Source of the DNA: an uncultured Poribacteria bacterium
GTDB taxonomy: Bacteria > Poribacteria > WGA-4E > PCPOR2b
Direction of reading: 5' to 3'
DNA length: 64,000 nt
Assembly: GCA_958296125.1 (NCBI GenBank)
Contig: OY282444.1
Location: 3,505,623 to 3,569,622, forward strand
The position numbers and the translations under genes were made by a program. A model generated the notes under the pieces. The model was not told where the DNA came from and searched no databases. It saw only the letters and a list, made by a program, of their open reading frames with translations. Below, one piece after another: positions 15,213 to 64,000 of this stretch (position 1 is the stretch's first letter; each line of letters begins with the position of its first letter).

Positions 15213-18200
15213 TTACTTTAGGATCAGCATCTTACGGGTGGCGGAGAAGTCGCCGGCACTGAGGCTATAGAAATAAATGCCACTAGCAACCTGTTCCCCG
15301 AATTGGTTTCTGCCATCCCAGTAGATAGCTTTGCTTCTCGACTCATAAACCGCTGCGGCTTGATGGCCGAGGTCAAGGGTTCGCACCACTCGCCCGGTAG
15401 AATCGTAGAGGGTCAACGTAACATCGGCATCTTCTGCCAGACGATACGGAATCCACGTTTCTGGGTTGAACGGATTTGGATAGTTCCGAAGCAGTTCGGT
15501 CTCTGCCGGAATCTCATAAGCAACGAGATCTTCCACCTCAAGGATACCGCGCTTCACATCATCTGTTGTAACGATATGACGCACCGGCTTAACCCCAATC
15601 AACGGATCTGGTGAATCAACGGAAATCTCAATGACATCGCCAACTCGTGCGGCATGAGCGTCATTAAGGTCAACAAAGGTCATGTTGTATCCGCCCATCG
15701 CTGTTTCATCGGAGGTGATCCGACTGAGCGAGGCTTTTGTTGATAGGTTCTTCACCTTGACGCGGAAGCCTTCCCTTGCGAGGCCGGTGCCTTCGTTAAT
15801 AACAGCACCGTGAACATCAAGGACCGGGGTTTGACCGTCAACCTTGTATCCAGCGAGCGCAATAGGTGCAGCCCCCGCCAGCGTGTCGTTAGCCCACCCG
15901 TCTCCGGTGACCGTTGCAGAAGCATCAGCAGTCGCCGTTATGAGATATGCTGCGTCTCCCATGACAGGCCCGTCTCCGGGGTCCCCGGCTTGACTGATGG
16001 CTTGGAAGTTACCGTCGATTGAAACAATGATGTTTGCGACATTCCCACCGAACAGCGTTATGAGGTCGCTGATGTTGGTTACGCTTGCATCGTTGAGGGG
16101 CAGCCCGACAAGGTTCTGTCCCGCACTGAGGTTAATGGTGCCATCCTCCCAGGCATCGCCGGTGAAGGTGACCGTTGTGTCAGCGGTCATCGAAAGGACA
16201 ATCCCCAGGTCAGCGGTAATCGGCAAGGCCTCACTGCGGCTATTCCACGAACTGCCATCATAGGTAATAGCGAGCGTGGCGGCAGTGCCAATCATCTCAA
16301 GGAGATCTTCCACAGTGTCGAGACCTTCAACTTTAAGTGGCACGTGGAACAAGCTAACCCCTGCCGGTATCATTGAAGTGTATTCGATGCTATTTTGTAA
16401 CATAACCGTTGTAGAGGCCATGCCACTATTGCCGGCGGCATCCATCGCAGTTACTGTGATGGTTTGCATACCGTTCATCGCTTCGTTATCTGCACTGATG
16501 GTTACTTCAGCACTGTAAGCATTACCTGCAGCCATATCCGAAGGCATATCTGCAGCCATGTCTGAAGGCGCATCTGCAGCCATATCCGAAGGCGCATCTG
16601 CAGCCATGTCTGAAGGCGCATCTGCAGCCATATCCGAAGGCGTGTCTGCAGCCTCATCTGCCATGGGTGCCATGGTCGCCATAGTCAGTGCGACTGTCGT
16701 TTGCGTTGAATCCAGCATTGAGACATCCGCCATCACCGAAGCAATCGCTCCAGCATCTGTAACCGTAGCCGTAATCGTCACCATCTCCCCGTTTGAAACG
16801 GTGTCAGGTGATGCGGTTACTGTTACCGCCGGTGCCATCGTGTCAACGGTCAACATCCCCGCAGACAGGCTCGAACTGGTCTCCGTGAGCGTAACTGTGA
16901 CCTCATGGACTCCATCGTGCAGGTCCGCAACGGCTGTGTAGCTGCCGGTATAGGTGCCTTCAGGCCCCTCGGTCATTGATGCTCCAGTCACAATCGAACC
17001 GATCGAGAAGGTTAGCATCTGACTCGCGGTGCCGGTGGCGTTGATCGTTACGGTGTCCCCCACCGTCGCCATCGTTGTATCAATCGAAGCGGTTAGCAGG
17101 GTTACCATATTGGTGGTGACCGTTACTGCATGCGCTGCCGGTGTTAAGTTCGGCGCGCTCGCGGTAATCGTCGCTGCCCCAACGGTCGAATCCATGTAGT
17201 AGACCATCGCTGAAACATCACCTGTAGGAATAGTCACGGTGATGGCTTCGGTCCCCGCTCCCTCAGCGGTCTCAGCGAAGGTGCCGGCTGAGCTTGAGGT
17301 GAGGGTGACATCGACATCGGTTCCCAGCGCGGTCTCATTGCCATTAGCATCTTGCAGCCCAACCGTGATAGCCAGTGGCATCGCCCCGGCATCAGCGGAA
17401 ACAGCACCGGCGCTGCTCAACGAAAGCTGGCTCGGTGTGGAGTCTTGGACTCTAACCTGAACGTCGGCTACAATCGGCTCGCCATCAAACAGGATCTTGA
17501 ACGGCGTGACCTCACGGGCAGTCGGTGCGTCGGCATTCTCGTAGGTGAAGACAATCTCATCACCTGCTTCTACCTCAAGTCCACCCAACTTCACGCGGGC
17601 AACCATATCCCGGCCGACGGGGTCCAGTTTTTCCACACTTACCGTCGTTGAGGCACCTTGATGCCTGTGCACCACAGTGTAGGTTCCCTTGTCCTCCTCT
17701 GAAGCGGCAGCACTGTTGGGTGCTGTCCACGGAGCAGGAACTTGAACTCGGAACTCACGGGGCGCGTCAATGATACCGACAGCGGTGTAGGTAAACGTAA
17801 GATCTACCCCTGTGGCACCTGCTTGGACAATCTTCGGTGTAACGGTCCCTGAACCGGAGCCCGGTCTCGCCTCTCCAACATCAACGGTAAGCATTGTCGT
17901 CTCGCCGGAGACATTGACATACGAATCGGCTGCGTCACCACCGTGAACTGCAACGGCAAATGCAACACCGGTCCCTGCGGCAGGCTGCACATCACCTGTG
18001 TAGACAAACGTCACGGTCCCGTTGGCACTCAGATTAACGCCCTCAACGATGACCATTTGGCCGTCAAAGGTGGACGTAAACGCGGGTGTTACCGTTACCG
18101 TCTCCGCACTCGGCGCAGACCAACCAGCGGGGATGGCCAATCGAACCTTGCCCCCAATCATTTGACCCGCCGCGGTGTAGGTAACGGTCAGCTCGCGGCC

Positions 18201-21200
18201 GGTATCGCCGGTATGGAGCGACGCATCGCCATCGGTTACGGCAAGGACTGCTTTACCTTTCCCACTCGCTTGCGGATTGACTGTTATTGTCGGTTGCGTG
18301 CGTAGCGGTGCAAGGTTGCCACCTTCATGCCCCCGAATCGCAACCCGAAACGCATCGGTGCCCGTTGTAGCGGAGGCTACCGCACGCCCGGTGCCGGTCG
18401 CACCATAGGTGATTTTGATGGTATTAGTTTTGTCAAGCGAGAAGATAGGCACGTTCACAGAGAACTTATTATCATCTGTGGCGGAGCCAAGCCCAACGCC
18501 TTCCACTTCGGTATATCCCGGCTCGCCCACCTCTTCAACTTGTGGTTTACTCCAGCTCGATGGAACGGTAATTTTCAACTCTCCATCTTCGATGGTCTGG
18601 CTTGGGGTGTAGGTAAAGACTAATTGCACATCGTCCGCAGCTGCCCGAACCGTTGTCGTATCAACTGCCACGGTTCCGGTGCCGTCCAATGCACTGGTTA
18701 CTTTGACTTGTAAGACACCGGGCTTATCTTTATAAATCTTCCCTGTTTTGTCAGGGTTTCTTATCTTCTCCCGGTCCTTGTGCTCCAACTCACTGGTAAT
18801 GCGGGCGAAAACGCCGTCCCCATCCCCATCGGTTTGAATCGTGAAGTCGGCGGTCCCAACAACGTCCTGAACCTCTGCACCAACATCGGCACCGGTCCCA
18901 CCGCCGTAGATAAATCGGAAACTCCCACCTTTGGCGAGCTTATCGATCGTTGCGATCACGAGGCTGTTGGTGATTTCCAATGAGGAGACCCCCGAACCGC
19001 GCGTCGTCACATAATTCCGCTTTTGAGGGTCATTCTGCAGCGAACCCCAACCCGATGGAAGCTCGAGGCTTACCGCGCCCCCGTCCATCGTGCCTGCCGC
19101 TGTGAACGTTACCTCTAGCGCCCGATGACTACTGCCCGCCTCTATTGAGGTCGGCGATAGCACCGCAGTCCCCTTACCATCGCTGATATTGCTCAGCGTA
19201 ACCGTAACTGTCCCGGCCGTCCGGGTGCTCGCACCTGAAGAGGTTCTAAATGTGCCGGTCACTTCGACATCAGCGGCGACATGATGTAACACCGCTGCCT
19301 TGCCATCATCAGCTGTGCTACCATACGTAATCGTGACGTACTCACCGACATTCAGCTGCCCAACCGCAACGGTGATCGTCCGACCGGAGACCGTGATCTC
19401 ATCGGCACCAATAGCACCGACTCCCCCGCTCTTTTTCGCTTGGCCATCGACTGCTATCCGGCCCACTACCCCTTTCGTCTTCGTCGGCGCACTGCCCAAC
19501 GCGGACGGGATGGTCAATCGAACCAAGCCACCCCTTATCGGGGTCGCCTCCGCTGTAAACCTGAAATTGATGGTGGCATCACTGCCGGCATCGAACGTGC
19601 TGGTGCCATCGATTGCAAAGTTTATCGCATCCCCCGATGTCTTCACAACGGAGAGGATCGGTTTCTCATTCACATCTGTGGTGGTCGGATCGTCCTGAAT
19701 TGCATCTGTTGAACCTCCAACCGTCACCCCCCAGCCATACTCGCCCGCATCGGCTACGATGTTGACCCGGCGGATTCTCGCCGTTAGCGTTTTCCCTTTC
19801 TTAAGGCTGATACTTGTCCAAGTTATCGTCGTATTAGTTACCCCGAAACTATCAGACTCCGAACCTGTAACATACCCGTAGGCAGCAGAGTTATCATCCT
19901 GGAGTATCTGATCGGCATCGGCATCTATGACAATCCCATCCGGAGTAATCACGATCGTTGTGTCCGTCAGGTCGGTATACGCGGTATACGTTACGGTGAT
20001 ATCCCGACGCTGCGAACCCGCCTCCACCGAAGTCGGCGACAGATCCACCTTACCAGAACCGTCAATATCGACCCACTGACCACCAGTCACCTTCATAGCA
20101 ACAGCGTCGTCAGCATCGGCAGTTGTGGTGACCTCATCATCTGCATTTACGACGATACCGCGCTGGACAATGGTCTTCGCGGTGATATTCGGTGGACGGA
20201 ATGGATCAGTCCCAGCTCCAGCCCCAATCGCGGCAGTGCGAGTATAGGATACGATAATTTGCTGACCTATACTAAGCGTGGTAATCGGGATCGTTAGCTT
20301 CATGGGTGTCCCAGGATTGTCGGCATCGACGAAAGCCATACCAGCCGCTTCCACCGCGGTGCCAACTGCTCCCCCGCCCCTGGTGCTCACAGTAAAATCA
20401 GCAGCCGTGAAGGTGTCCTGTGGCCCTAAATGGGCCGTTCCTACTCCTGCGGGGCCAAAGAATAACTCTAGCTGACCCCCATCCATCGGGCCAGGTGCTG
20501 TAAAAGTGAGCGTGAATCGGGTATTTGTCTCGCCCGGGAATACCCGAGCCGGTGTAATTTTAAGCTCTCTTGTGAGGGGGTCACGGTTAGGATCGGTAGT
20601 AAGCGGACCATTTCCTATGATATTGCCAACCCTGACTTCAGGTAGAAACGATAATAGACCCAGAACATCGTTCCTTGTCGTCTCACTGCATTGGAATTTA
20701 TAGCTGGCATACTTGACATTATCAACCCGGTTAACAGTAGCGTCGTCCGGATCGTCATCACGCAGACGATCATCCGTTGCAGTGAGCATCCTCGGGATAG
20801 GGGCAGTGACATCACCCAATCGAATGATGAGGGTTCTATCAGAAGCCCGCTGGGAACCCCAATCTGAACCGAAGGTGACGGTTATCCGCTGGTCCGCTAT
20901 GAAGTCTACATTTGTCAGGTTGTTATTATCTGCGAGGTTAGAGCCTGAGGTGACAGTGCCCTCTCCATTCGTTGCGTATACCAGTGTAGGTGCAGCAGTA
21001 CCCGCTTGGACTGAGACTTCTAGGAACTTGTTAGAAACCTTCCAACCCGGTGGTATCGCAACCCGAAAGCGACCGCCAACTAGGTTTTCAGCCATTGGCA
21101 GGTAGGAAAATTCCAGAACATTGCGAACACTACCCGCAGCAAGAGGGGGAGGAAGAGCATCATCATTATCAAGAGCAGCCATTGGAGCAAGAGTCTTAAT

Positions 21201-21923
21201 AGCGAGAGCTACACTATCATCGACAAGCATCGGGGGGACCGTGGTAGCCACGCCGGCAGTAGGGCGGTGCCCCCATTTTACCTTTACAGGTTCTTGTAAT
21301 CCTCTGAGGGTTAAAGTATAGGCCCCGCCGTCCAAGGCAGTCCAAGTGGATCCTTCTAGGGACTTGGAAGTGAGTGCATAGCTAGTTGTCCCGGTAGGGC
21401 TAGGGAAAACTGCCTTAAAGATTATGTAATATGCACCAAATTCCAGAGAATCGGCTAGAGCTGAGGCAGCCTCTGCTTTGATCACACCATCCGAGTCTTG
21501 TGTTAGATTCGGAAGTGGTGTACCCCCTGTGATAGTCCCCCCCAGGGCAGTGTCAGCCGGCAGGGAAAGGGCACCCTCGGTCGCGCTCGAGAAGATATAG
21601 CCATTTATTCCCGTTGCTGTGCCAGCCGGATCCACTATCTCGATACCGTTTGGGATAGTAACCTCGAACCCATCATTGCCATCAGCACCGGCTGCCCACG
21701 TCATCTTAGCGGCCACCGTGTAAGTGCGACCGGCACCACTTCGCTCCACCACAGCCTTAGGGACGACCGAGCCATCAGCTGAAAAATAGTGGAACGTCGC
21801 TACATTAGCCCCTGGAGCAGGCGCGGCCTCGTCAATGAAAAAGCCCGCAACCAGCATCAAGCTGATAATTGAAAATATGCTTAACTTCTGAAGGTTTAAC
21901 CCTTCTTGTTGTTTAAACATCAT
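15213..21923 (-). CDS. Giant repetitive secreted protein with T9SS-type C-terminal sorting domain
   Basis: About 2,236 residues. ATG codons at 21923 and 21920 both follow GAGAGG; the choice is open. A signal peptide (SIISLMLVAGFF) leads into at least seven modules of about 150 residues, coded at roughly 450-base intervals between 20.5 and 17.7 kb. Their shared pattern is SPTSxEAG, then TVTYTA, GG and IPxGW. Ig-like regions follow (TASIDTTMATVGDTVTINAT; APAVTVTASPDTVSNGEMVT), then an 8-residue tandem repeat (PSDMAADA). A domain with GQNLVGLPLND and a carboxypeptidase-regulatory-like segment precede the last 90 residues. These carry NYPNPFNPETWIPYRLAED and ASGIYFYSL, ending in RKMLILK. The tail is the T9SS type-A/FlgD-like sorting form. 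It is probably an exported adhesin or cell-surface scaffold. Confidence 0.88.
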   Translation of the reverse strand: MMFKQQEGLNLQKLSIFSIISLMLVAGFFIDEAAPAPGANVATFHYFSADGSVVPKAVVERSGAGRTYTVAAKMTWAAGADGNDGFEVTIPNGIEIVDPAGTATGINGYIFSSATEGALSLPADTALGGTITGGTPLPNLTQDSDGVIKAEAASALADSLEFGAYYIIFKAVFPSPTGTTSYALTSKSLEGSTWTALDGGAYTLTLRGLQEPVKVKWGHRPTAGVATTVPPMLVDDSVALAIKTLAPMAALDNDDALPPPLAAGSVRNVLEFSYLPMAENLVGGRFRVAIPPGWKVSNKFLEVSVQAGTAAPTLVYATNGEGTVTSGSNLADNNNLTNVDFIADQRITVTFGSDWGSQRASDRTLIIRLGDVTAPIPRMLTATDDRLRDDDPDDATVNRVDNVKYASYKFQCSETTRNDVLGLLSFLPEVRVGNIIGNGPLTTDPNRDPLTRELKITPARVFPGETNTRFTLTFTAPGPMDGGQLELFFGPAGVGTAHLGPQDTFTAADFTVSTRGGGAVGTAVEAAGMAFVDADNPGTPMKLTIPITTLSIGQQIIVSYTRTAAIGAGAGTDPFRPPNITAKTIVQRGIVVNADDEVTTTADADDAVAMKVTGGQWVDIDGSGKVDLSPTSVEAGSQRRDITVTYTAYTDLTDTTIVITPDGIVIDADADQILQDDNSAAYGYVTGSESDSFGVTNTTITWTSISLKKGKTLTARIRRVNIVADAGEYGWGVTVGGSTDAIQDDPTTTDVNEKPILSVVKTSGDAINFAIDGTSTFDAGSDATINFRFTAEATPIRGGLVRLTIPSALGSAPTKTKGVVGRIAVDGQAKKSGGVGAIGADEITVSGRTITVAVGQLNVGEYVTITYGSTADDGKAAVLHHVAADVEVTGTFRTSSGASTRTAGTVTVTLSNISDGKGTAVLSPTSIEAGSSHRALEVTFTAAGTMDGGAVSLELPSGWGSLQNDPQKRNYVTTRGSGVSSLEITNSLVIATIDKLAKGGSFRFIYGGGTGADVGAEVQDVVGTADFTIQTDGDGDGVFARITSELEHKDREKIRNPDKTGKIYKDKPGVLQVKVTSALDGTGTVAVDTTTVRAAADDVQLVFTYTPSQTIEDGELKITVPSSWSKPQVEEVGEPGYTEVEGVGLGSATDDNKFSVNVPIFSLDKTNTIKITYGATGTGRAVASATTGTDAFRVAIRGHEGGNLAPLRTQPTITVNPQASGKGKAVLAVTDGDASLHTGDTGRELTVTYTAAGQMIGGKVRLAIPAGWSAPSAETVTVTPAFTSTFDGQMVIVEGVNLSANGTVTFVYTGDVQPAAGTGVAFAVAVHGGDAADSYVNVSGETTMLTVDVGEARPGSGSGTVTPKIVQAGATGVDLTFTYTAVGIIDAPREFRVQVPAPWTAPNSAAASEEDKGTYTVVHRHQGASTTVSVEKLDPVGRDMVARVKLGGLEVEAGDEIVFTYENADAPTAREVTPFKILFDGEPIVADVQVRVQDSTPSQLSLSSAGAVSADAGAMPLAITVGLQDANGNETALGTDVDVTLTSSSAGTFAETAEGAGTEAITVTIPTGDVSAMVYYMDSTVGAATITASAPNLTPAAHAVTVTTNMVTLLTASIDTTMATVGDTVTINATGTASQMLTFSIGSIVTGASMTEGPEGTYTGSYTAVADLHDGVHEVTVTLTETSSSLSAGMLTVDTMAPAVTVTASPDTVSNGEMVTITATVTDAGAIASVMADVSMLDSTQTTVALTMATMAPMADEAADTPSDMAADAPSDMAADAPSDMAADAPSDMAADMPSDMAAGNAYSAEVTISADNEAMNGMQTITVTAMDAAGNSGMASTTVMLQNSIEYTSMIPAGVSLFHVPLKVEGLDTVEDLLEMIGTAATLAITYDGSSWNSRSEALPITADLGIVLSMTADTTVTFTGDAWEDGTINLSAGQNLVGLPLNDASVTNISDLITLFGGNVANIIVSIDGNFQAISQAGDPGDGPVMGDAAYLITATADASATVTGDGWANDTLAGAAPIALAGYKVDGQTPVLDVHGAVINEGTGLAREGFRVKVKNLSTKASLSRITSDETAMGGYNMTFVDLNDAHAARVGDVIEISVDSPDPLIGVKPVRHIVTTDDVKRGILEVEDLVAYEIPAETELLRNYPNPFNPETWIPYRLAEDADVTLTLYDSTGRVVRTLDLGHQAAAVYESRSKAIYWDGRNQFGEQVASGIYFYSLSAGDFSATRKMLILK
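16528..16647. repeat. 24-base tandem repeat, five copies, inside the giant gene
   Basis: In-frame units of GCAGCCAT[A/G]TC[C/T]GAAGG plus GCATCT encode PSDMAADA on the minus strand. The two third-base variants alternate from unit to unit, implying that a 48-base pair of units was duplicated. The copy number is likely to vary between strains. Confidence 0.85.
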
Positions 21924-22005
21924 CAAACCTCTCTTTTCATGTTATTTGTGTGAAATATTAATTTTAGAACAAGGCAATTCCCAAAAACAGCAGAATTGCA
22001 CTTTA

Positions 22006-56699: not shown

Positions 56700-56795
56700 G
56701 ACAAAGTTTCCGAAGAATGACCTATCTCGCCAAATCGCTATTCATCTCATCGCGGAGGTCGTCAATGCGCTTGTCGGTTTGCTTGGGCGAGGTTA

Positions 56796-57581
56796 TCACC
56801 AAAAATTGAAGTCTCCCTTTATCTCCCCCCAAGTGGTCGTGAATTTCCTCCGCGGCTGCACTGAAAGTGCCTCATATTGAACCTCAAAATCGTCGAAGTG
56901 GACCCGGTTCCCCCATCCTGACGACAGATAAATTCTCCCCGCCGTGTAGGTGTCGTCAAGAAAATCTAGCATTGCTTTGTCATCAATAAAGCATTGAAAC
57001 CGATTCCCCTTGGCAATAACCTTCAACCGATACCACTTGTGCAGCCTGAAATCAAATAGTCGAAACGCGCGTAGCTTGTCTTTATTATAGACAGTCCATT
57101 TGTCTGCTTTCATAGAAAGCTTCATATGTTCAATGTTCGCTGCAAGCCCTCTTCTTATATCCTGAAAATTTATATCTTGATTACCTAGGAAGAACTTGTA
57201 AGATCGCCTGTACCGAAGTGCTTGGATCTGCTCGTTCCTCTTCGCCTGCTCAATGAACGGCTCAAGGAGCGGATCCGTATGAGCGCGCAGCCCAATGAGT
57301 GCGCCACCGTTGATATCCCTAACCAGCCTGCTGATTTTTACAGACACCGACACTTCGTAGTTGCTTGCGATTATACCATCAACCGCAATCATAACCTCCG
57401 CTTTCTCCTCCGCTTTAGGAGAACTGAGAACCAATTCACCATTTTGAATCTCCCCATTTTGGGCACCTTGCACAAACGTCCATCCCTTTAAATCGCCATC
57501 GTTAAAATTATCACGAAATATCTCTGCCCATACCGATGATACCAACAACGTAAGTATCAACATAACCATCGTATGCTTCAT
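56796..57581 (-). CDS. Secreted family A protein, copy A1 (LamG/DUF1080-like)
   Basis: 261 residues. Signal peptide MKHTMVMLILTLLVSSVWA, then EIFRDNFNDGDLKGWTFVQG, ending in a concanavalin-like beta-sandwich (YRLKVIAKGNRFQCFIDD, GRIYLSSGWGNRVHFDDFEV). The NDGDLKGW opening and FDDFEV closing resemble DUF1080/3-keto-disaccharide-hydrolase or LamG-type domains; no catalytic residues can be assigned. It is paralogous to A2 (58806) and A3 (62059). Its C-terminal third is almost identical to A3, while its N-terminal third differs from both. It lies after the propeller gene B1 on the same strand. Confidence 0.82.
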   Translation of the reverse strand: MKHTMVMLILTLLVSSVWAEIFRDNFNDGDLKGWTFVQGAQNGEIQNGELVLSSPKAEEKAEVMIAVDGIIASNYEVSVSVKISRLVRDINGGALIGLRAHTDPLLEPFIEQAKRNEQIQALRYRRSYKFFLGNQDINFQDIRRGLAANIEHMKLSMKADKWTVYNKDKLRAFRLFDFRLHKWYRLKVIAKGNRFQCFIDDKAMLDFLDDTYTAGRIYLSSGWGNRVHFDDFEVQYEALSVQPRRKFTTTWGEIKGDFNFW

Positions 57582-57697
57582 GAGATATCACCGTCCTTCT
57601 CTGCTGGCATTCAACACAGATTTACGCACAATGGATCGCAGATGTTTTGATACGACACAACTTTTGACCCCTTTTCCACGGGTGGTGTTTCAAACTG

Positions 57698-58759
57698 TCA
57701 CTGTCTCTCCAATTTCATACGTCCCCAAAGGGTGGCTTGATTACTTGACACCTCCACCGACAAGGAACGGTCGGGAATGACCCATGTTGGGTCAGTATCC
57801 GATGCCGGATCCGTAGTAAGTTGCGCCCGATTATCCCCGTTGGCATCCATGACATAAATATCTGGACGCTGACCAACCCGAAAGGCGTGATACGCAATCC
57901 ACCTCCCATCGAGAGACCACGCAGGTGCACGGTCTTCCCATGGGTGGCGGGTTAGGTTGACAACGTTGTCTCCATTAGGGGTCATGGCATAGATATCGTC
58001 CTGACCGCCTTCCCGATTGGACTGAAACGCTATCTTTGTCCCATCGGGCGACCATGTGGGCGCAGCGTCAAGGGCAGGGTGGTTGGTCAAATTGACCTGC
58101 TTTCTACCATTTGACCCCATTACATAGATTTCCCCATTCCCATCCCGATTGGAAAAAAACACAATTTTTGAGCCATCAGGCGACCAAGAACCGACCTCAT
58201 CCCTTCCCGGCGACTGTGTTAAATTCTTTAACTGGTTTCCTGCGATATCCATAACGCAAACATCAGTCATGCCATCTGGCGACCCATCAGTGCTAGTAAG
58301 AGCTAACCGCTTCCCATCCGGGGACCATTTTGGCGATAGGTACGTTTGACCCCCAAACCGTTTGGTCAAGTTTTTGATTTGAATTATAGGCTGAGGCCCC
58401 AAAAAATCAGGAAGAATAACAGGAGTCGCCAAATGTATGAAAGTGACAAATGGGTCCTGTGGGTCATGCAGGTGGTAGGCAGTATATTTTCCATCCGGGG
58501 ACCAGGCAATTGGACCATATCTGTGATCACTAAGCCACCAAGGTACTTCAAGCCAAGGTATTCCAAATCCGAATCCATCGGCATCAATCAAATAAACTGA
58601 CATATCAATCTGAAAAAGGGGGTCTCGATCTCGATCGGATAGAAATGCGATGGTACCGGTCCATTCGTTGGCGGAAGTCTGTTTAGTAAGCAGACTCCAT
58701 GCGAATAGGAGTATTATGGCACCAAAAATCTTTTGATGCCCTGCGAGTTGCTTCAACAT
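57698..58759 (-). CDS. Secreted family B protein, copy B1 (PD40/TolB-like propeller)
   Basis: 353 residues from ATG 58759, with GGAGG 7 bases upstream. The signal-like segment (IFGAIILLFAWSLLT) is followed by a TolB-like propeller of PD40 repeats with WSPDG motifs (SPKWSPDGKRLALTSTDGS, GSWSPDGSKIVFFSNRDGNG, TWSPDGTKIAFQSNREGGQD, AWSLDGRWIAYHAFRVG). TolB itself is periplasmic, but this protein lacks the TolB N-terminal domain, so it is a generic exported propeller. The C-terminal two thirds are nearly identical to B2 at DNA level; the N-terminal 100 residues have diverged. Confidence 0.87.
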   Translation of the reverse strand: MLKQLAGHQKIFGAIILLFAWSLLTKQTSANEWTGTIAFLSDRDRDPLFQIDMSVYLIDADGFGFGIPWLEVPWWLSDHRYGPIAWSPDGKYTAYHLHDPQDPFVTFIHLATPVILPDFLGPQPIIQIKNLTKRFGGQTYLSPKWSPDGKRLALTSTDGSPDGMTDVCVMDIAGNQLKNLTQSPGRDEVGSWSPDGSKIVFFSNRDGNGEIYVMGSNGRKQVNLTNHPALDAAPTWSPDGTKIAFQSNREGGQDDIYAMTPNGDNVVNLTRHPWEDRAPAWSLDGRWIAYHAFRVGQRPDIYVMDANGDNRAQLTTDPASDTDPTWVIPDRSLSVEVSSNQATLWGRMKLERQ

Positions 58760-58805
58760 GTATAATCCTCCTTGAATTTGTTTGGCACCCATGCGTAACC
58801 AGACT

Positions 58806-59594
58806 TCAATGGAAGTCCCCCTTTATCTCTCCCCAAGTGGTTGTGAGTTTCCTCCGAGGCTGCACCGGACGCGCATCATATTGAACCTCAAAGTCATCGA
58901 AGTGAACACGGCTGCCCTTTGCTGACGACAGATAAATTTTCCCTTCTGTATAGGTGTCGTCAAGAAAATCTAGCATTTTTATGTCATCAATAAAGTATTG
59001 AAACCGATTCCCCTGGGCAATAACCTTCAACCGATACCACTTGTGCAGTTTGAAATTAAATAGCCGAAATGTGTGTAGCTTATCCCTACTAAAGGTTTTC
59101 CATAAGTTTCCTTCCATAGAAACCTTCATCAGTTGAATGGTCGCTGCAAGACCTCTTCTTATATCTTGAATATGTGCATCATCTTCAATATTTATATCAC
59201 CTAGGACGAACCTGTAAGATCGCTTGTGCAGAAGTGGTAGTAACTTCTTGTTCCTCTCGTTCTCCTTCAACTTCTTAAGGAGCGGATCTGTATGGGCGCG
59301 CAGCCCAATGGTTGCACCACCGCTAATATTCCTAGCTAGCCAGCTGATTTTTACAGATACCGACGCTTCGTAGTCGCTTGAGATTATACCATCAACCGCA
59401 ATGATAACCTCCGCTTCTCGCTCCTTTTTAGGAGAACCGAGAACCAATTCACCATTTTCAATACCACCATCTTCATCACTCTGTATAAACGTCCATCCCT
59501 TTAAGTCACCATCGTTAAAATTATCGCGAAATATCTCTGCCCTTACTGATGACACCAATAACGTAAGTATCAACATAACGATCGTATGCTTCAT
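58806..59594 (-). CDS. Secreted family A protein, copy A2
   Basis: 262 residues with the same signal peptide and fold as A1 (MKHTIVMLILTLLVSSVRA, then EIFRDNFNDGDLKGWTF). The N-terminal region (DEDGGIENGELVLGSPK) matches A3, not A1. The C-terminal region (IAQGNRFQYFIDDIKMLDFL, EGKIYLSSAKGSRVHFDDFE) differs from the near-identical pair A1/A3. It lies 46 bases upstream of B1 in the minus-strand unit A2-B1-A1. Confidence 0.82.
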   Translation of the reverse strand: MKHTIVMLILTLLVSSVRAEIFRDNFNDGDLKGWTFIQSDEDGGIENGELVLGSPKKEREAEVIIAVDGIISSDYEASVSVKISWLARNISGGATIGLRAHTDPLLKKLKENERNKKLLPLLHKRSYRFVLGDINIEDDAHIQDIRRGLAATIQLMKVSMEGNLWKTFSRDKLHTFRLFNFKLHKWYRLKVIAQGNRFQYFIDDIKMLDFLDDTYTEGKIYLSSAKGSRVHFDDFEVQYDARPVQPRRKLTTTWGEIKGDFH

Positions 59595-60005
59595 GAGATA
59601 TCACCTTCCTTCACTGCTGGCATTCAACACAGATTCAAGCGCAGTGGATCGCACGCAATTCCTTGAGAGCTCAATTGTAATTACGCAGGTTCACCCTTTG
59701 CCCGATAGATCAGGTGGCTACAATATTCCAATAGAGCACCGTAACCCAAAAACTCGGTTTCTCTTTAACGGGTAGCAACTTAAAAACGGGTAGCAACTTA
59801 AACTATTTTAACACACAATCAATGCGCTTTCAATATAAAGATTGCTTGACACTTTGATTCTTGTGTGCTATTATTTCTAAAGGAAAAGTATGTGCTGTCC
59901 CATTTACAAATGACTCTAGATGAAATGAGTGTGTCTCTCCGGAGGAAGTGATTTCGTTACCCTCCTGCCCCCCAAAGGAAGGTAACATTTGAAGGGAGAA
60001 TACTA
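59595..60005. other. Duplicated leader segment, copy 1
   Basis: 411 bases between A2 and the plus-strand gene at 60006. About 59625-59880 is nearly identical to 62900-63130, including CGCACGCAATTCCTTGAGAG, CTACAATATTCCAATAGAGC and a promoter. An 18-base element ACGGGTAGCAACTTAAA is present twice in tandem here (59768-59800) but once in the other copy. No gene is seen. Confidence 0.75.
59846..59874 (+). promoter_or_regulatory. Consensus sigma-70-type promoter, copy 1
   Basis: TTGACA and TATTAT with a 17-base spacer, about 130 bases upstream of the start at 60006. The same sequence recurs at 63099-63127. Confidence 0.75.
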
Positions 60006-60737
60006 ATGAATACAAGGCTAACGAAAAATATCCTTCAGACGATTGGTGGAGTTCTCGTGCTAACAGTTTTAATGTGTGCAGGGATGTTTCTTTACGCCCA
60101 ATGGGATTTGAAACGTTTTAAGGAATCACTCGGGGAACTGCCCGAGGTTTCACCTATAACTACCTCACAGACAGAGAAAAAGGCAAATACACACACCGAA
60201 GAAACAACCTCTACCGAAATAGCGGTACCAAAACCCTTGACACAGCATCATATTGAACCGGAATCCTCCAAAGAGCTCGGAATGGAAGTGCCTTCACTTG
60301 AAACACTCGATTTTCTCATGGACGAACTTTCTCTTTCTGAAGTGGAAACCTTGAAAGAAATGATTGCTGAAGAGAATCTTGAGGCAGATAAGGGCACACA
60401 AGTTGACGAGTTTCAGGCGGATATCGATAGGAGTAGTGTCGCAGGTTTTATTTCAGCCCTTGAGTCGGGCAACATTAGCATAGGCACAAGTGATCCAAAA
60501 GAGGTTGCTACTGTTGTTGAAATGCTCAAACGCTCGACAGAGGGTCCAATAGCAATTGATGATCTAATTACTATGCTGGAAGCGTGGATAAGAATCCAAT
60601 CCGATACCCCACATGGGCAATCAATGGTAAATGAAAGTCGTGATCCGCTTACGGCTGCGCTTTTACGGCTCCGAGCTAAGAAGGAAGAGTCTTTGCAAAG
60701 TGGAGAAGATACAAAGTACACTGTACAGATCGACTGA
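60006..60737 (+). CDS. Hypothetical membrane-anchored acidic protein
   Basis: 243 residues, ATG with GGGAG 7 bases upstream. One N-terminal transmembrane segment (TIGGVLVLTVLMCAGMFLYA, residues 12-31) anchors a Ser/Thr/Glu-rich, low-complexity linker (about 45-90) and an acidic helical C-terminal region (LDFLMDELSLSEVETLKEMI; SVAGFISALESGNISIGTSD). I do not recognise the family. It is the only plus-strand gene in the A/B array and the only one with its own consensus promoter. Its base composition (A+T-rich) differs from the older genes nearby. Confidence 0.7.
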   Translation: MNTRLTKNILQTIGGVLVLTVLMCAGMFLYAQWDLKRFKESLGELPEVSPITTSQTEKKANTHTEETTSTEIAVPKPLTQHHIEPESSKELGMEVPSLETLDFLMDELSLSEVETLKEMIAEENLEADKGTQVDEFQADIDRSSVAGFISALESGNISIGTSDPKEVATVVEMLKRSTEGPIAIDDLITMLEAWIRIQSDTPHGQSMVNESRDPLTAALLRLRAKKEESLQSGEDTKYTVQID

Positions 60738-60965
60738 AAGCCCAAAGAAGGAACAGAAGAAAGTGAAGAGCATCTTTTACAGCTTTTGTTCTGATTTCTG
60801 TTGTAGTTTCTGGACTTGTATTTTACTTCGCGCTACAACACAACGCGCTCTTGTAGTTAATACAATCTCTGCTGGCATTCAACACAGATTCAAGCGCAGT
60901 GGACCGCAGATGTTTTGATACGACACAACTTTTGACCCCTTTTCCACGGGTGGTGCTTCAAATTG

Positions 60966-62009
60966 TTACTGTCTCTCCAATTTCATACGTCCCCAAAGGG
61001 TGGCTTGATTACTTGACACCTCCACCGACAAGGAACGGTCGGGAATGACCCATGTTGGGTCAGTATCCGATGCCGGATCCGTAGTAAGTTGCGCCCGATT
61101 ATCCCCGTTGGCATCCATGACATAAATATCTGGACGCTGACCAACCCGAAAGGCGTGATACGCAATCCACCTCCCATCGAGAGACCACGCAGGTGCACGG
61201 TCTTCCCATGGGTGGCGGGTTAGGTTGACAACGTTGTCTCCATTAGGGGTCATGGCATAGATATCGTCCTGACCGCCTTCCCGATTGGACTGAAACGCTA
61301 TCTTTGTCCCATCGGGCGACCATGTGGGCGCAGCGTCAAGGGCAGGGTGGTTGGTCAAATTGACCTGCTTTCTACCATTTGACCCCATTACATAGATTTC
61401 CCCATTCCCATCCCGATTGGAAAAAAACACAATTTTTGAGCCATCAGGCGACCAAGAACCGACCTCATCCCTTCCCGGCGACTGTGTTAAATTCTTTAAC
61501 TGGTTTCCTGCGATATCCATAACGCAAACATCAGTCATGCCATCTGGCGACCCATCAGTGCTGGTAAGAGCTAACCGCTTCCCATCCGGCGACCATTTTG
61601 GCGATAGGTACGTTTGACCCCCAAACCGTTTGGTCAAGTTTTTGATTTGAATTATAGGACGAGGCCCCAAAAATTTAGGAAGCATAACAGGAGTCTCCAA
61701 ATATATAAAAGTGACAAATGGGTCCTGTGGGTCATGCAGGTGGTAAGCAATATATTTTCCATCCGGGGACCAGGCAATTGGACCATATCTGTGATCACTA
61801 CCCTTCCAAGGTCCTTCGTTTAATCCATCGGCATCAATCATATAAACCATTATATCAATCCGAAAAAGGGGGTCTCGATCTCGATCGGATAGAAATGCAA
61901 TTCTGCCTGTCGGTGCGTCGGCAGAAGTCTGTTCAGTAAACAGGCTCCATGCAAATAAAAATATCATGGCACCAAAAATCTTCTGAGACACTGAGAATTG
62001 CTTCAACAT
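60966..62009 (-). CDS. Secreted family B protein, copy B2 (PD40 propeller)
   Basis: 347 residues from ATG 62009 with GGAGG upstream. The same architecture as B1. The DNA from the stop to about 61,670 is nearly identical to that of B1 and includes downstream flanking sequence, whereas the signal peptide and first about 100 residues differ (LNEGPWKGSDHRYG against GIPWLEVPWWLSDHRYG in B1). Confidence 0.87.
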   Translation of the reverse strand: MLKQFSVSQKIFGAMIFLFAWSLFTEQTSADAPTGRIAFLSDRDRDPLFRIDIMVYMIDADGLNEGPWKGSDHRYGPIAWSPDGKYIAYHLHDPQDPFVTFIYLETPVMLPKFLGPRPIIQIKNLTKRFGGQTYLSPKWSPDGKRLALTSTDGSPDGMTDVCVMDIAGNQLKNLTQSPGRDEVGSWSPDGSKIVFFSNRDGNGEIYVMGSNGRKQVNLTNHPALDAAPTWSPDGTKIAFQSNREGGQDDIYAMTPNGDNVVNLTRHPWEDRAPAWSLDGRWIAYHAFRVGQRPDIYVMDANGDNRAQLTTDPASDTDPTWVIPDRSLSVEVSSNQATLWGRMKLERQ

Positions 62010-62058
62010 GTATAAGCCTCCTTCTTGAATTTGTTTGGCCCTCATGCGTGACCGGACT

Positions 62059-62865
62059 TCAATGGAAGTCCCCCTTTATCTCCCCCCAAGTGGTTGTGAG
62101 TTGCTTCCGGGGCTGCACTGAAAGAGCCTCATATTGAACCTCAAAATCGTCGAAGTGGACCCGGTTCCCCCATCCTGACGACAGATAAATTCTCCCCGCC
62201 GTGTAGGTGTCGTCAAGAAAATCTAGCATTGCTTTGTCATCAATAAAGCATTGAAACCGATTCCCCTTGGCAATAACCTTTAACCGATACCACTCGTGCA
62301 GTTTGAAATCAAATAGCCGAAATGTGTGTAGCTTGTCCGCGACAAAGATTTTCTCAGGGAATCCGTCTTTTCTTACAGAAACCTTCAGAAGTTGAATGGT
62401 CGCTGCAAGACCTCTTCTTATATCTTGATGTTCACCATCTTCAATATTTATATTACCTAGGAAGAACCTGTAAGATCGCTTGTACAGAAGTATTCGGAGA
62501 TGCTTGATCTTCTCGTCCTTTTCCAAAGGAACAGTGAACGGCTTAAGGAGCGGATCCGTATGAGCGCGCAGCCCAATGACTGCTACACCATCGCCCATAT
62601 CCCTGGCTAGTTTGCTGATTTTTACAGACACCGACACTTCGTAGTCGCTTGATATTATACCATCAGCAACAATCATAACCTCTTGTCCAAACTCCACCTT
62701 AGGAGAACCGAGAACCAATTCACCATTTTCAATGCCACCATCTTCGTCGCCTTGTACAAACGTCCATCTCTGTAAATCACCATCGTTAAAATTATCACGA
62801 AATATCTCTGCCCTTACTGATGACACCAACAATGTAAGTATCAACATAACCATTGTATGCTTCAT
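62059..62865 (-). CDS. Secreted family A protein, copy A3
   Basis: 268 residues from ATG 62865, the same start as A1 and A2 (the frame is open upstream but lacks a match). The N-terminal half resembles A2 (VQGDEDGGIENGELVLGSPK), and the C-terminal half is nearly identical to A1 (GRIYLSSGWGNRVHFDDFEV). Thus A3 is a mosaic of the two other copies. It lies 49 bases upstream of B2, repeating the A-then-B order seen for A2-B1. Confidence 0.82.
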   Translation of the reverse strand: MKHTMVMLILTLLVSSVRAEIFRDNFNDGDLQRWTFVQGDEDGGIENGELVLGSPKVEFGQEVMIVADGIISSDYEVSVSVKISKLARDMGDGVAVIGLRAHTDPLLKPFTVPLEKDEKIKHLRILLYKRSYRFFLGNINIEDGEHQDIRRGLAATIQLLKVSVRKDGFPEKIFVADKLHTFRLFDFKLHEWYRLKVIAKGNRFQCFIDDKAMLDFLDDTYTAGRIYLSSGWGNRVHFDDFEVQYEALSVQPRKQLTTTWGEIKGDFH

Positions 62866-63098
62866 GAGATATCGCCTTCCTTCTCCGCTGTAAGTCAATA
62901 CAGATTTACGCACAATGGATCGCACGCAATTCCTTGAGAGCTCAATTGTAATTACGCAGGCTCACCCTTTGTTCGATAAATCAGGGGGCTACAATATTCC
63001 AATAGAGCACCGTACCCCAAAAACTCAGTTTCTCTTTAACGGGTAGCAACTTAAACTATTTTAACACACAATCAATGCGCTTTCAATATAGAGATTGC

Positions 63099-63127
63099 TT
63101 GACACTTTGATTCTTGTGTGCTATTAT
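63099..63127 (+). promoter_or_regulatory. Consensus sigma-70-type promoter, copy 2
   Basis: TTGACA and TATTAT with the same 17-base spacer as the copy at 59846-59874. The gene it serves is not evident. Confidence 0.7.
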
Positions 63128-63186
63128 TCCTAATGGTTATTTATAGTAGAAGTGAGTTGTTTGTGCAAACCAGAAAGGAGTTTAGA

Positions 63187-63228
63187 ATGATTATCCGAAT
63201 GTGGAAAGTAATCCCACCGATGTCATAA
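63187..63228 (+). pseudogene. 13-codon open frame with strong ribosome-binding site, possible broken gene
   Basis: AAAGGAG lies 6 bases ahead of an ATG that opens MIIRMWKVIPPMS and stops at TAA. In the same frame, without another stop, 73 codons follow to 63447, ending in a hydrophobic segment (FLVLCIFFIVASAPLVVVF). A single stop mutation in a small membrane-protein gene would explain this, but a leader peptide or chance is possible. Confidence 0.3.
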
Positions 63229-63612
63229 GAATCGAAGTTGGAATTACCATTACTCCTAGAGAATAGAGCAGTGCCAGAAAAGTGTCTCTGCCGCAGTGAA
63301 AAGCTATCTACACCCTCCCAAAAAATAAAACAGAGACAGCAGCAACTCTCCTTAAAGTATCTTTCTCGCTTTTTAGTCTTATGCATATTTTTTATAGTTG
63401 CGAGTGCACCCCTGGTTGTTGTCTTTAGATGCACGCTGGACCTCTGATGAAGCGGGGTGGTTGCAGCACAGTATGGCCGCGGTTGAGGCGGGCCCCTTTT
63501 TTACCGAACCGCATGTGTCGGTCAAAGGGGTAGTGTTGAGACGAGTAGATTGGCACGGCGTTTATTTTCAAAAACCGCCCCGATGCGGAGGAGAAACAGT
63601 CGATAATTGATG

Positions 63613-64000
63613 TTATCGGCTGCTCTGTTTGAGCCACCCCCACACCGTGAATGTTTTGCCTGTCCGAGAGGATCCCGTGACCGGGGCGGGAGCAACTGCA
63701 AAAGCAGGATTATACCATGTAGGATCAGTGTCATCATCGGGATTATTGGAGAGGTTTTTTTGATTTTCCCCATCGTCGTCCATCACGTAGATTTCCAAGT
63801 TCCCATCTCTATCAGACACGAAGGCAATGCGTTTACTGTCAGGGGACCATGAGGGATTCCAATCATTAAAAAAGGGATTAAGGGAGAGGTTTTTTTGATT
63901 TTCCCCATCGGCATCCATCACATAGATTTCCCTGCTCCTCCCATTCTTCATGGAAGTAAAGGCAATGCGCCTACCGTCAGGGGACCATGAGGGATTTTCG
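63613..64000 (-). CDS. PD40-propeller protein, copy B3 (partial)
   Basis: The 3' part of a gene running off the right edge. The visible 129 codons comprise propeller repeats with WSPDG/WSPDS motifs (PSWSPDGRRIAFTS, NPSWSPDSKRIAFVSDRDGN) and EIYVMDADGENQKNL, ending in a tail (FTVWGWLKQSSR) comparable with the ATLWGRMKLERQ tail of B1 and B2. It is more diverged than B1 and B2 are from each other. Confidence 0.8.
   Translation of the reverse strand, partial: ENPSWSPDGRRIAFTSMKNGRSREIYVMDADGENQKNLSLNPFFNDWNPSWSPDSKRIAFVSDRDGNLEIYVMDDDGENQKNLSNNPDDDTDPTWYNPAFAVAPAPVTGSSRTGKTFTVWGWLKQSSR

Follow-up and report, generated by a model that had tools for sequence, protein, structure and literature searches.

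Duplication, putative gene conversion and signs of positive selection in an inserted array of tailed secreted proteins in Poribacteria

Two gene families, A and B, form an array in a poribacterial genome, and we somewhat favor the explanation that duplication, gene conversion and positive selection are diversifying a set of secreted, probably surface-bound binding proteins encoded in an inserted array. The window, i.e., the whole stretch of 64,000 nucleotides that we analysed, is part of a single 5.16 Mb contig. On the minus strand the order of the array is A3-B2, then a gene X on the opposite strand, and then A2-B1-A1, as listed below. Both A/B units had been described in a sequence-only reading of this DNA and are real, subject to two corrections.

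56705 to 64000, continuing to about 64746 past the window: lineage-specific insert; the genes on either side of it enclose a different 346-aa gene in genomes G002 and G003
56796 to 57581, minus strand: A1, predicted secreted DUF1080-like beta-sandwich protein, 261 aa, hydrophobic N-terminus; PF06439 45.5 bits (cut-off 26.8)
56817 to 56867, minus strand: C-terminal tail of A1, LSVQPRRKFTTTWGEIK
56869 to 57023, minus strand: putative A1/A3 conversion tract, 155 identical bases; A3 side 62126 to 62280; permutation P = 0.0005
57598 to 59883: duplicated unit, copy 1; copy 2 at 60866 to 63136, 89% identical
57698 to 58759, minus strand: B1, predicted secreted PD40 propeller, 353 aa from the likely start MLKQL (the ORF opens at 58792); PF07676 134.7 bits
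57700 to 58294, minus strand: putative B1/B2 conversion tract, 595 identical bases; B2 side 60968 to 61562
57713 to 57763: tail of B1
58806 to 59594, minus strand: A2, A-family copy, 262 aa, with B1 next on the same strand; PF06439 43.2 bits
58821 to 58871: tail of A2
59846 to 59874, plus strand: perfect TTGACA-17-TATTAT promoter-like site upstream of X; duplicate at 63099 to 63127, where X is absent
60006 to 60737, plus strand: X, 243 aa, one likely membrane segment near the N-terminus, between both units
60966 to 62009, minus strand: B2, second B copy, 347 aa, 595 bases the same as in B1; tail at 60981 to 61031
62059 to 62865, minus strand: A3, A-family copy, 268 aa from ATG (the ORF opens at 62925), C-terminal part probably converted with A1; PF06439 39.7 bits; tail at 62074 to 62124
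63613 to 64000, minus strand: "B3", the 3' part, inside the window, of a 346-aa PD40 gene; distant B paralogue that carries the tail

In two sister species (G002 and G003) a cytochrome c gene is followed by a 346-aa gene and a 497-aa gene, and in the genome studied here the middle gene of this site is replaced by an 8.0 kb block. These indicate that the array is a lineage-specific insert at a conserved site. As far as can be judged it is no artefact of collapsed repeats, because it lies on a single 5.16 Mb contig and an independent genome holds X, A, B, A and a broken B together. The gene previously read as a partial third B copy is complete; it encodes a 346-aa PD40 protein, crosses the end of the window (63613 to about 64653), is only 35% identical to B2, and is one among many PD40 paralogues, with 68 match places genome-wide, rather than a copy of B. 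X shows no Pfam hit above cut-off, and neither A nor X matches a phage family. X adjoins A-B-A on contig C23 of G004, and relatives of X were found in 22 of 40 genomes searched; X as a component of the system was rejected, since many genomes beyond the genus carry such relatives but have no family A. Control by a neighboring ECF sigma factor was also rejected, as an ECF sigma gene adjoins A or B in G002 and G004 and none was seen beside the array here. The ORFs listed around the array include no recognised reverse transcriptase, on which ground a diversity-generating retroelement was dismissed.

The A+B duplication of 2.3 kb was recovered by self-BLAST, in which A1 is about 83% identical to both A2 and A3. 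Between the coding sequences of B1 and B2, 51 of the 1041 sites compared are different, and every one of them falls within the first 447, whereas the final 595 coding bases are identical and the similarity extends beyond the stop codon, to 57598 and 60866; this bears out the earlier observation of near-identity over about the last 700 bases and into the downstream flank with a diverged start. In permutations (n = 5000) the longest identical run between B1 and B2 was at most 209 bases. A3 shows a MaxChi break near alignment codon 209 (P = 0.0035). Of the mosaic structure claimed for it, the A1-like C-terminus stands (24 vs 4 informative sites), and the "A2-like N-terminus" is weak (45 vs 35). 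The duplication as a whole is 89% identical, yet there are identical tracts of 595 bases between B1 and B2 and of 155 bases between A1 and A3, and we read these tracts as gene conversion. The proposed combination of duplication and gene conversion is thus supported by self-BLAST, the permutation runs and MaxChi. "Expanding" finds no clear support: the genome contains only three A and two B genes, and losses are as visible as gains.

The families also appear to change faster than their surroundings. Omega is 0.36–0.82 among dispersed A copies, whereas it is 0.02–0.22 for almost all flanking genes in the syntenic blocks (up to 0.35 for an adjacent ECF sigma gene) and 0.11–0.17 for the single-copy A orthologues in an ABC transporter operon. 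In site models of A, M2a is preferred over M1a (2ΔlnL = 80) with omega of 4.5 at 8% of sites, a test that recombination and alignment error near indels can inflate; under strict masking, which drops every column lying up to 4 codons from a gap, the signal falls to 12.1 (P = 0.0024), and two smaller subsets give P = 0.03–0.05. The central segment of A, analysed with its own tree, gives P = 6×10−11 and the C-terminal segment P = 0.54, and for the ABC orthologues 2ΔlnL is 0.0. In B, dN/dS is 1.05–1.75 at codons 60–150, compared with 0.18–0.22 in the unconverted parts of the body. These results support positive selection in the centre of A with conserved ends, at a strength sensitive to masking, and they agree with the suggestion that these are diversifying proteins, on the omega contrasts, the codon models in A and dN/dS > 1 in B. 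The variable part of A is presumably exposed. It is also evident that the selected sites include residue 18 of the signal peptide, which is hard to account for by ligand binding and counts against the explanation that we favor. Moreover, synonymous distances to other species are 0.22–0.48 for A versus 0.61–0.78 for the cytochrome gene; because those of A are low, part of the pattern may stem from between-species exchange or from synonymous sites being locally constrained.

Relaxed constraint could produce this pattern, if redundant duplicates in a variable island had a near-neutral middle, with conversion and residual constraint acting on the folded ends. Much of central A indeed has omega near 1, few sites remain in the strictest masked test, and B is broken, deleted or replaced beside A at three other places (in G004, G005 and G002). 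Against this, all 18 aligned A genes are intact with in-frame indels only (a further copy on contig C245 of G005, outside the 18, is split over two frames), the ends are strongly conserved, and a site class with omega > 1 is found at P from about 0.003 to 4×10−18 according to masking. We consider relaxed constraint rather unlikely as the explanation.

What A might do at the molecular level was approached through its family. A1–A3 match PF06439 across the whole domain at 39.7–45.5 bits, above the curated cut-off, whereas strong members in the same genome reach about 150 bits. A PDB sequence search with A returned weak levanase/galectin-like matches only, and the AlphaFold model (pLDDT 27) was unusable; A is, by its profile match, a distant DUF1080-like sandwich. 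DUF1080 proteins have been described as hydrolases of 3-keto sugars (PMC9007349), and an A relative sits in an ABC transporter locus that has SBP_bac_1 and MalK-type parts, between the gene for the permease and that for the ATPase, both of which findings, like the profile match, would suit A proteins that are periplasmic or surface 3-keto-glycoside hydrolases, each tuned to different sugars. However, in a low-identity and thus indicative alignment, the NSG and YE[IL]Q[VI]LD segments common to the two strong PF06439 members of the genome are unaligned in A1, A2 and the ABC-linked A, and a hypervariable insert stands in their place; an unsystematic look also noticed no sugar 3-dehydrogenase gene beside A. 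A hydrolase role is thus doubtful. For B1, the best Foldseek matches of a low-confidence model (55) are TolB, and it scores 159 bits against the TolB (Tol-Pal) equivalog, below the cut-off of 343.

An obligate secreted complex of A and B, along the lines of the two-component system suggested in the sequence-only reading, is very improbable: the two genes lie side by side in the same orientation in G000 and G004 and both are variable and tailed, but of 6 genomes in the genus only 2 have an intact A next to an intact B, an intact B is lacking at most dispersed A loci and at 5 of 5 ABC-operon A genes (leaving aside G003:C125, which stops at a contig end), an intact B occurs without A on contig C89 of G002, and B is frequently lost beside A. 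On these neighborhood data the two families are largely apart in most genomes, the outcome that the sequence-only reading had itself named as refuting its view, and obligate pairing was rejected. The link between A and B appears instead to be a C-terminal tail common to many unrelated secreted proteins. This tail of about 20 residues, with the motif [FL][SA]VxPxxKLxTxWGx[LI]K, ends A, B and many Kelch, LamG and PD40 secreted proteins, and its carriers include DUF1080-like and Laminin_G_3 proteins. Among 220,049 aa from overlapping loci picked around A and B, the motif occurs in 66 ORFs within the last 40 residues and elsewhere once; an unbiased sample of 400 kb, taken together with the remainder of the window, gave 8 tail matches, of which 7 are C-terminal, whereas shuffled tail profiles gave 0–2 hits. 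Of the best profile matches in the genome studied, 29 of 30 end within 9 residues of the stop. A profile search, from which the genome-wide counts are taken in place of full proteomes, found the tail in 79 of 79 Poribacteria genomes with 12–100 matches each. No Pfam or NCBIfam model covers the tail and our literature searches found no description of it, and it may be an undescribed surface address label.

Two known sorting systems resemble the tail. PEP-CTERM and IPTLxxWG-CTERM tags, compared here through library scans, are short C-terminal tags that share an invariant motif and occur on a wide range of unrelated secreted proteins, and the letters WG recur in the tail; it differs in having no transmembrane helix after the motif, and the genome shows no match to exosortase PF09721 (a control search was positive in 1 of 14 genomes). 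Cargo of the type IX secretion system (T9SS; CTD types A, B and C, TIGR04183/PF18962 and TIGR04131/PF13585) likewise combines a Sec signal with a C-terminal signal on many unrelated secreted folds. The genome itself encodes a SprA/Sov-like protein of 2170 aa, which exceeds the PF14349 cut-off (the search covering this genome only) and matches TIGR04189 at 143 bits in five stretches (E = 6×10−42), below the cut-off of 200; a PDB sequence search with this protein gave no match. In contrast, T9SS signals have an Ig-like fold, which the tail lacks, and the C-terminal domain models had no hit in A, B and the other tailed proteins scanned (TIGR04183, 0 of 16). T9SS is, moreover, described as restricted to Bacteroidota (PMC10202324), whereas the tail is found in the phylum Poribacteria. 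A 2014 study reported Por-type C-terminal domains on poribacterial WD40 proteins but detected no genes of the Por system, and it left the pathway for later work (PMC3909097). We tentatively suggest, at somewhat short of even confidence, that the tail is an undescribed C-terminal sorting signal taking unrelated beta-rich proteins to the poribacterial surface via a T9SS-like (SprA/Sov) route outside Bacteroidota, with A/B-type arrays as fast-diversifying cargo.

Under the explanation of diversifying binding proteins, the N-terminal signals of A and B would lead to Sec export, and the tail would mark them for sorting to, or anchoring at, the cell surface, where a candidate outer-membrane translocon of SprA/Sov type encoded in the genome may recognise it. 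A surface location is most likely, as predicted from the signal-like N-termini and the common tail. The variable segments would form a ligand-binding face, and selection would come from a changing partner, such as host or matrix glycans, competitors, predators or phages. Glycan binding is probably the likeliest interaction, because A is a lectin-like sandwich and has a single-copy relative in a sugar-type ABC transporter operon. The array resembles antigenic-variation-like sets of diversifying surface proteins in its tandem copies, sharp-bordered conversion tracts, conserved ends and variable centre with dN/dS > 1; it differs in its small number of genes, and no silent cassettes or expression site were recognised for it.

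Poribacteria are dominant sponge symbionts, and the route by which their "eukaryote-like" repeat proteins reach the cell surface becomes a directly testable question through the common tail and the SprA-like protein. The fast change in A and B makes them concrete candidates for recognition of the host, the matrix or competitors.

The array lies on a single contig of 5.16 Mb (98.85% complete), of which the window covers bases 3505623-3569622; the named relatives of the window are Candidatus Poribacteria MAGs. Poribacteria are a phylum of sponge symbionts. The array comprises two secreted families, A (DUF1080-like beta-sandwich) and B (PD40 propeller), with X, a 243-aa protein with one likely membrane segment, between the two A+B units (tail denotes the shared C-terminal motif [FL][SA]VxPxxKLxTxWGx[LI]K):

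62865-62059, minus strand, A3, first in minus-strand transcription order; tail at 62074-62124
62009-60966, minus strand, B2, after A3; tail at 60981-61031
60006-60737, plus strand, X, between B2 and A2
59594-58806, minus strand, A2, after X; tail at 58821-58871
58759-57698, minus strand, B1, after A2; tail at 57713-57763
57581-56796, minus strand, A1, last of the array; tail at 56817-56867

Family A scores 40-45 bits against PF06439, above the cut-off of 26.8. At E<=1e-10 it occurs in all six genomes of the genus, the window's own included, and in 0 of 53 genomes from beyond the genus. The low-confidence structure model of the B propeller is nearest to TolB. What a sequence-only reading took for a partial third B proves to be a PD40 gene that is complete (346 aa), extends to about 64653 and shares 35% identity with B2.

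The same reading proposed duplication with gene conversion, and both are evident. The copies at 57598-59883 and 60866-63136 show 89% identity, with uneven divergence along their length. B1 and B2 share an identical 595-base tract that ends in the stop codon, all 51 differences lying upstream, whereas the longest identical run under permutation is at most 209 bases. From codon 150 onward their synonymous distance is 0.013, compared with about 0.32 to the copy in another genome of the genus (G004), and the identical tract was therefore copied recently. A1 and A3 share an identical 155-base run (P = 0.0005), with a MaxChi break near codon 209 (P = 0.0035). A perfect TTGACA-17-TATTAT promoter-like site is present in both duplication copies (59846-59874, belonging to X, and 63099-63127); X is gone from the second although the site is kept, the expected outcome of tandem duplication with loss.

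The insertion spot is a variable locus. In G002 and G003, a 346-aa gene separates a cytochrome c gene from a 497-aa gene; in the window's genome an 8.0 kb block (the array and the PD40 gene) lies between the cytochrome c and 497-aa genes. The corresponding spot in G004 bears PD40 genes and a PMT-like glycosyltransferase gene, and the G004 array (X, A, B, A and a broken B) is on a different contig. Window segments 63398-63473 and 63525-63773 weakly match glycosyltransferase and PD40 stretches downstream of the A-B array in G004 (contig C23), of which they are apparently remnants.

The suggested two-component pairing of A with B is not supported across the genus. Among the six genomes, intact neighbouring A and B are found only in the window's own and G004. 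Only the last codons of B remain after A in G005 (contig C245), and in G002 B is short and chimaeric on contig C41 and present without A on C89. No B adjoins the dispersed A genes of G001, nor several of those of G002, G004 and G005; G003 contig C125 ends beside its A. Five of the six genomes have an ABC transporter operon whose permease and ATPase genes flank a single-copy A relative (loci L048-L052); the A search did not find this relative in the window's genome. At three loci (L039:7390-8934, L043:10955-12475 and L077:10419-11867), the neighbour of an A or B gene is an ECF sigma factor that carries a long C-terminal extension.

Pairwise omega is 0.36-0.82 for dispersed A genes, 0.02-0.22 for almost all flanking genes of syntenic blocks (the few values >1 come from ORFs antisense to other genes), 0.35 for the ECF sigma gene adjoining A, and a normal 0.11-0.17 for the ABC-linked A orthologues. 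Positive selection on A is well supported and sensitive to masking. In our own implementation of site models (11 sequences, 238 codons), M2a is favored over M1a (2dlnL = 80.2; omega 4.5 at 8% of sites) and M8 over M8a (77.3); dropping near-gap columns with margins of 2, 4 and 6 codons leaves 38.2, 12.1 (P = 0.0024) and 11.4 (P = 0.0033), and the ABC-linked orthologues give 0.0. By segment, each with its own tree, P is 3e-5 (N), 6e-11 (centre) and 0.54 (C). In B, dN/dS is 1.05-1.75 at codons 60-150 and 0.18-0.22 in the body. The selected A sites are concentrated in two A2 stretches, residues 95-130 and 164-170, within or adjoining segments that replace the YEIQVLD stretch conserved in strong PF06439 members, and for A a binding role is thus a better reading than proven enzyme activity. 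To other species, A and B have synonymous distances of about 0.22-0.48, lower than the 0.61-0.78 of the neighbouring cytochrome gene, which suggests exchange between species or paralogues.

A and B have unrelated folds and like C-terminal ends (A2, ...RPVQPRRKLTTTWGEIK+4; B1, ...LSVEVSSNQATLWGRMK+4), a tail common to unrelated secreted folds phylum-wide. In 220,049 aa, a regular expression for its core matched the C-terminal 40 residues of 66 ORFs and one other position; this count is not unbiased because the loci overlap and were picked around A and B. In an unbiased 400 kb sample taken together with the remainder of the window, the tail profile has eight matches, seven of them C-terminal (shuffled profiles, 0-2 matches). 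The whole genome yields 66 matches at E<=1, and 29 of the best 30 end at most 9 residues from the stop; the proteins have signal-like N-termini. All 79 Poribacteria genomes searched contain the tail (12-100 matches each at E<=1e-4), and no Pfam or NCBIfam model covers it. Carriers include DUF1080-like, PD40, Kelch and Laminin_G_3 proteins, and tandem arrays are common. Loci L159, L160 and L161 hold tailed proteins in tandem: Laminin_G-type runs (four; about six to seven) and five consecutive Kelch-type genes.

Taken together, the array is a small insert encoding secreted proteins that diversify fast and end in a phylum-wide C-terminal tail. Duplication, conversion and the tail itself are established, and the location, ligand and route proposed for these proteins are inferred. 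An exosortase was looked for in the window's genome and is absent. A 2170-aa protein (L162:5892-12404; about 1477891-1484403 on contig C1 of this genome) has a SprA_N match over the cut-off and matches TIGR04189 (T9SS translocon Sov/SprA) in five stretches at 143 bits, against an equivalog cut-off of 200; the tail and this protein may act together. A 2237-aa protein of the window (15213-21926, minus strand) has a FlgD_ig / Por_Secre_tail-like domain at its C-terminus, a putative further C-terminal signal of this genome that differs in kind from the tail. Poribacterial WD40 proteins have been reported to bear Por-type C-terminal domains and the Por secretion genes to be missing (PMC3909097), and it is in this phylum that a SprA/Sov-like protein is found here.
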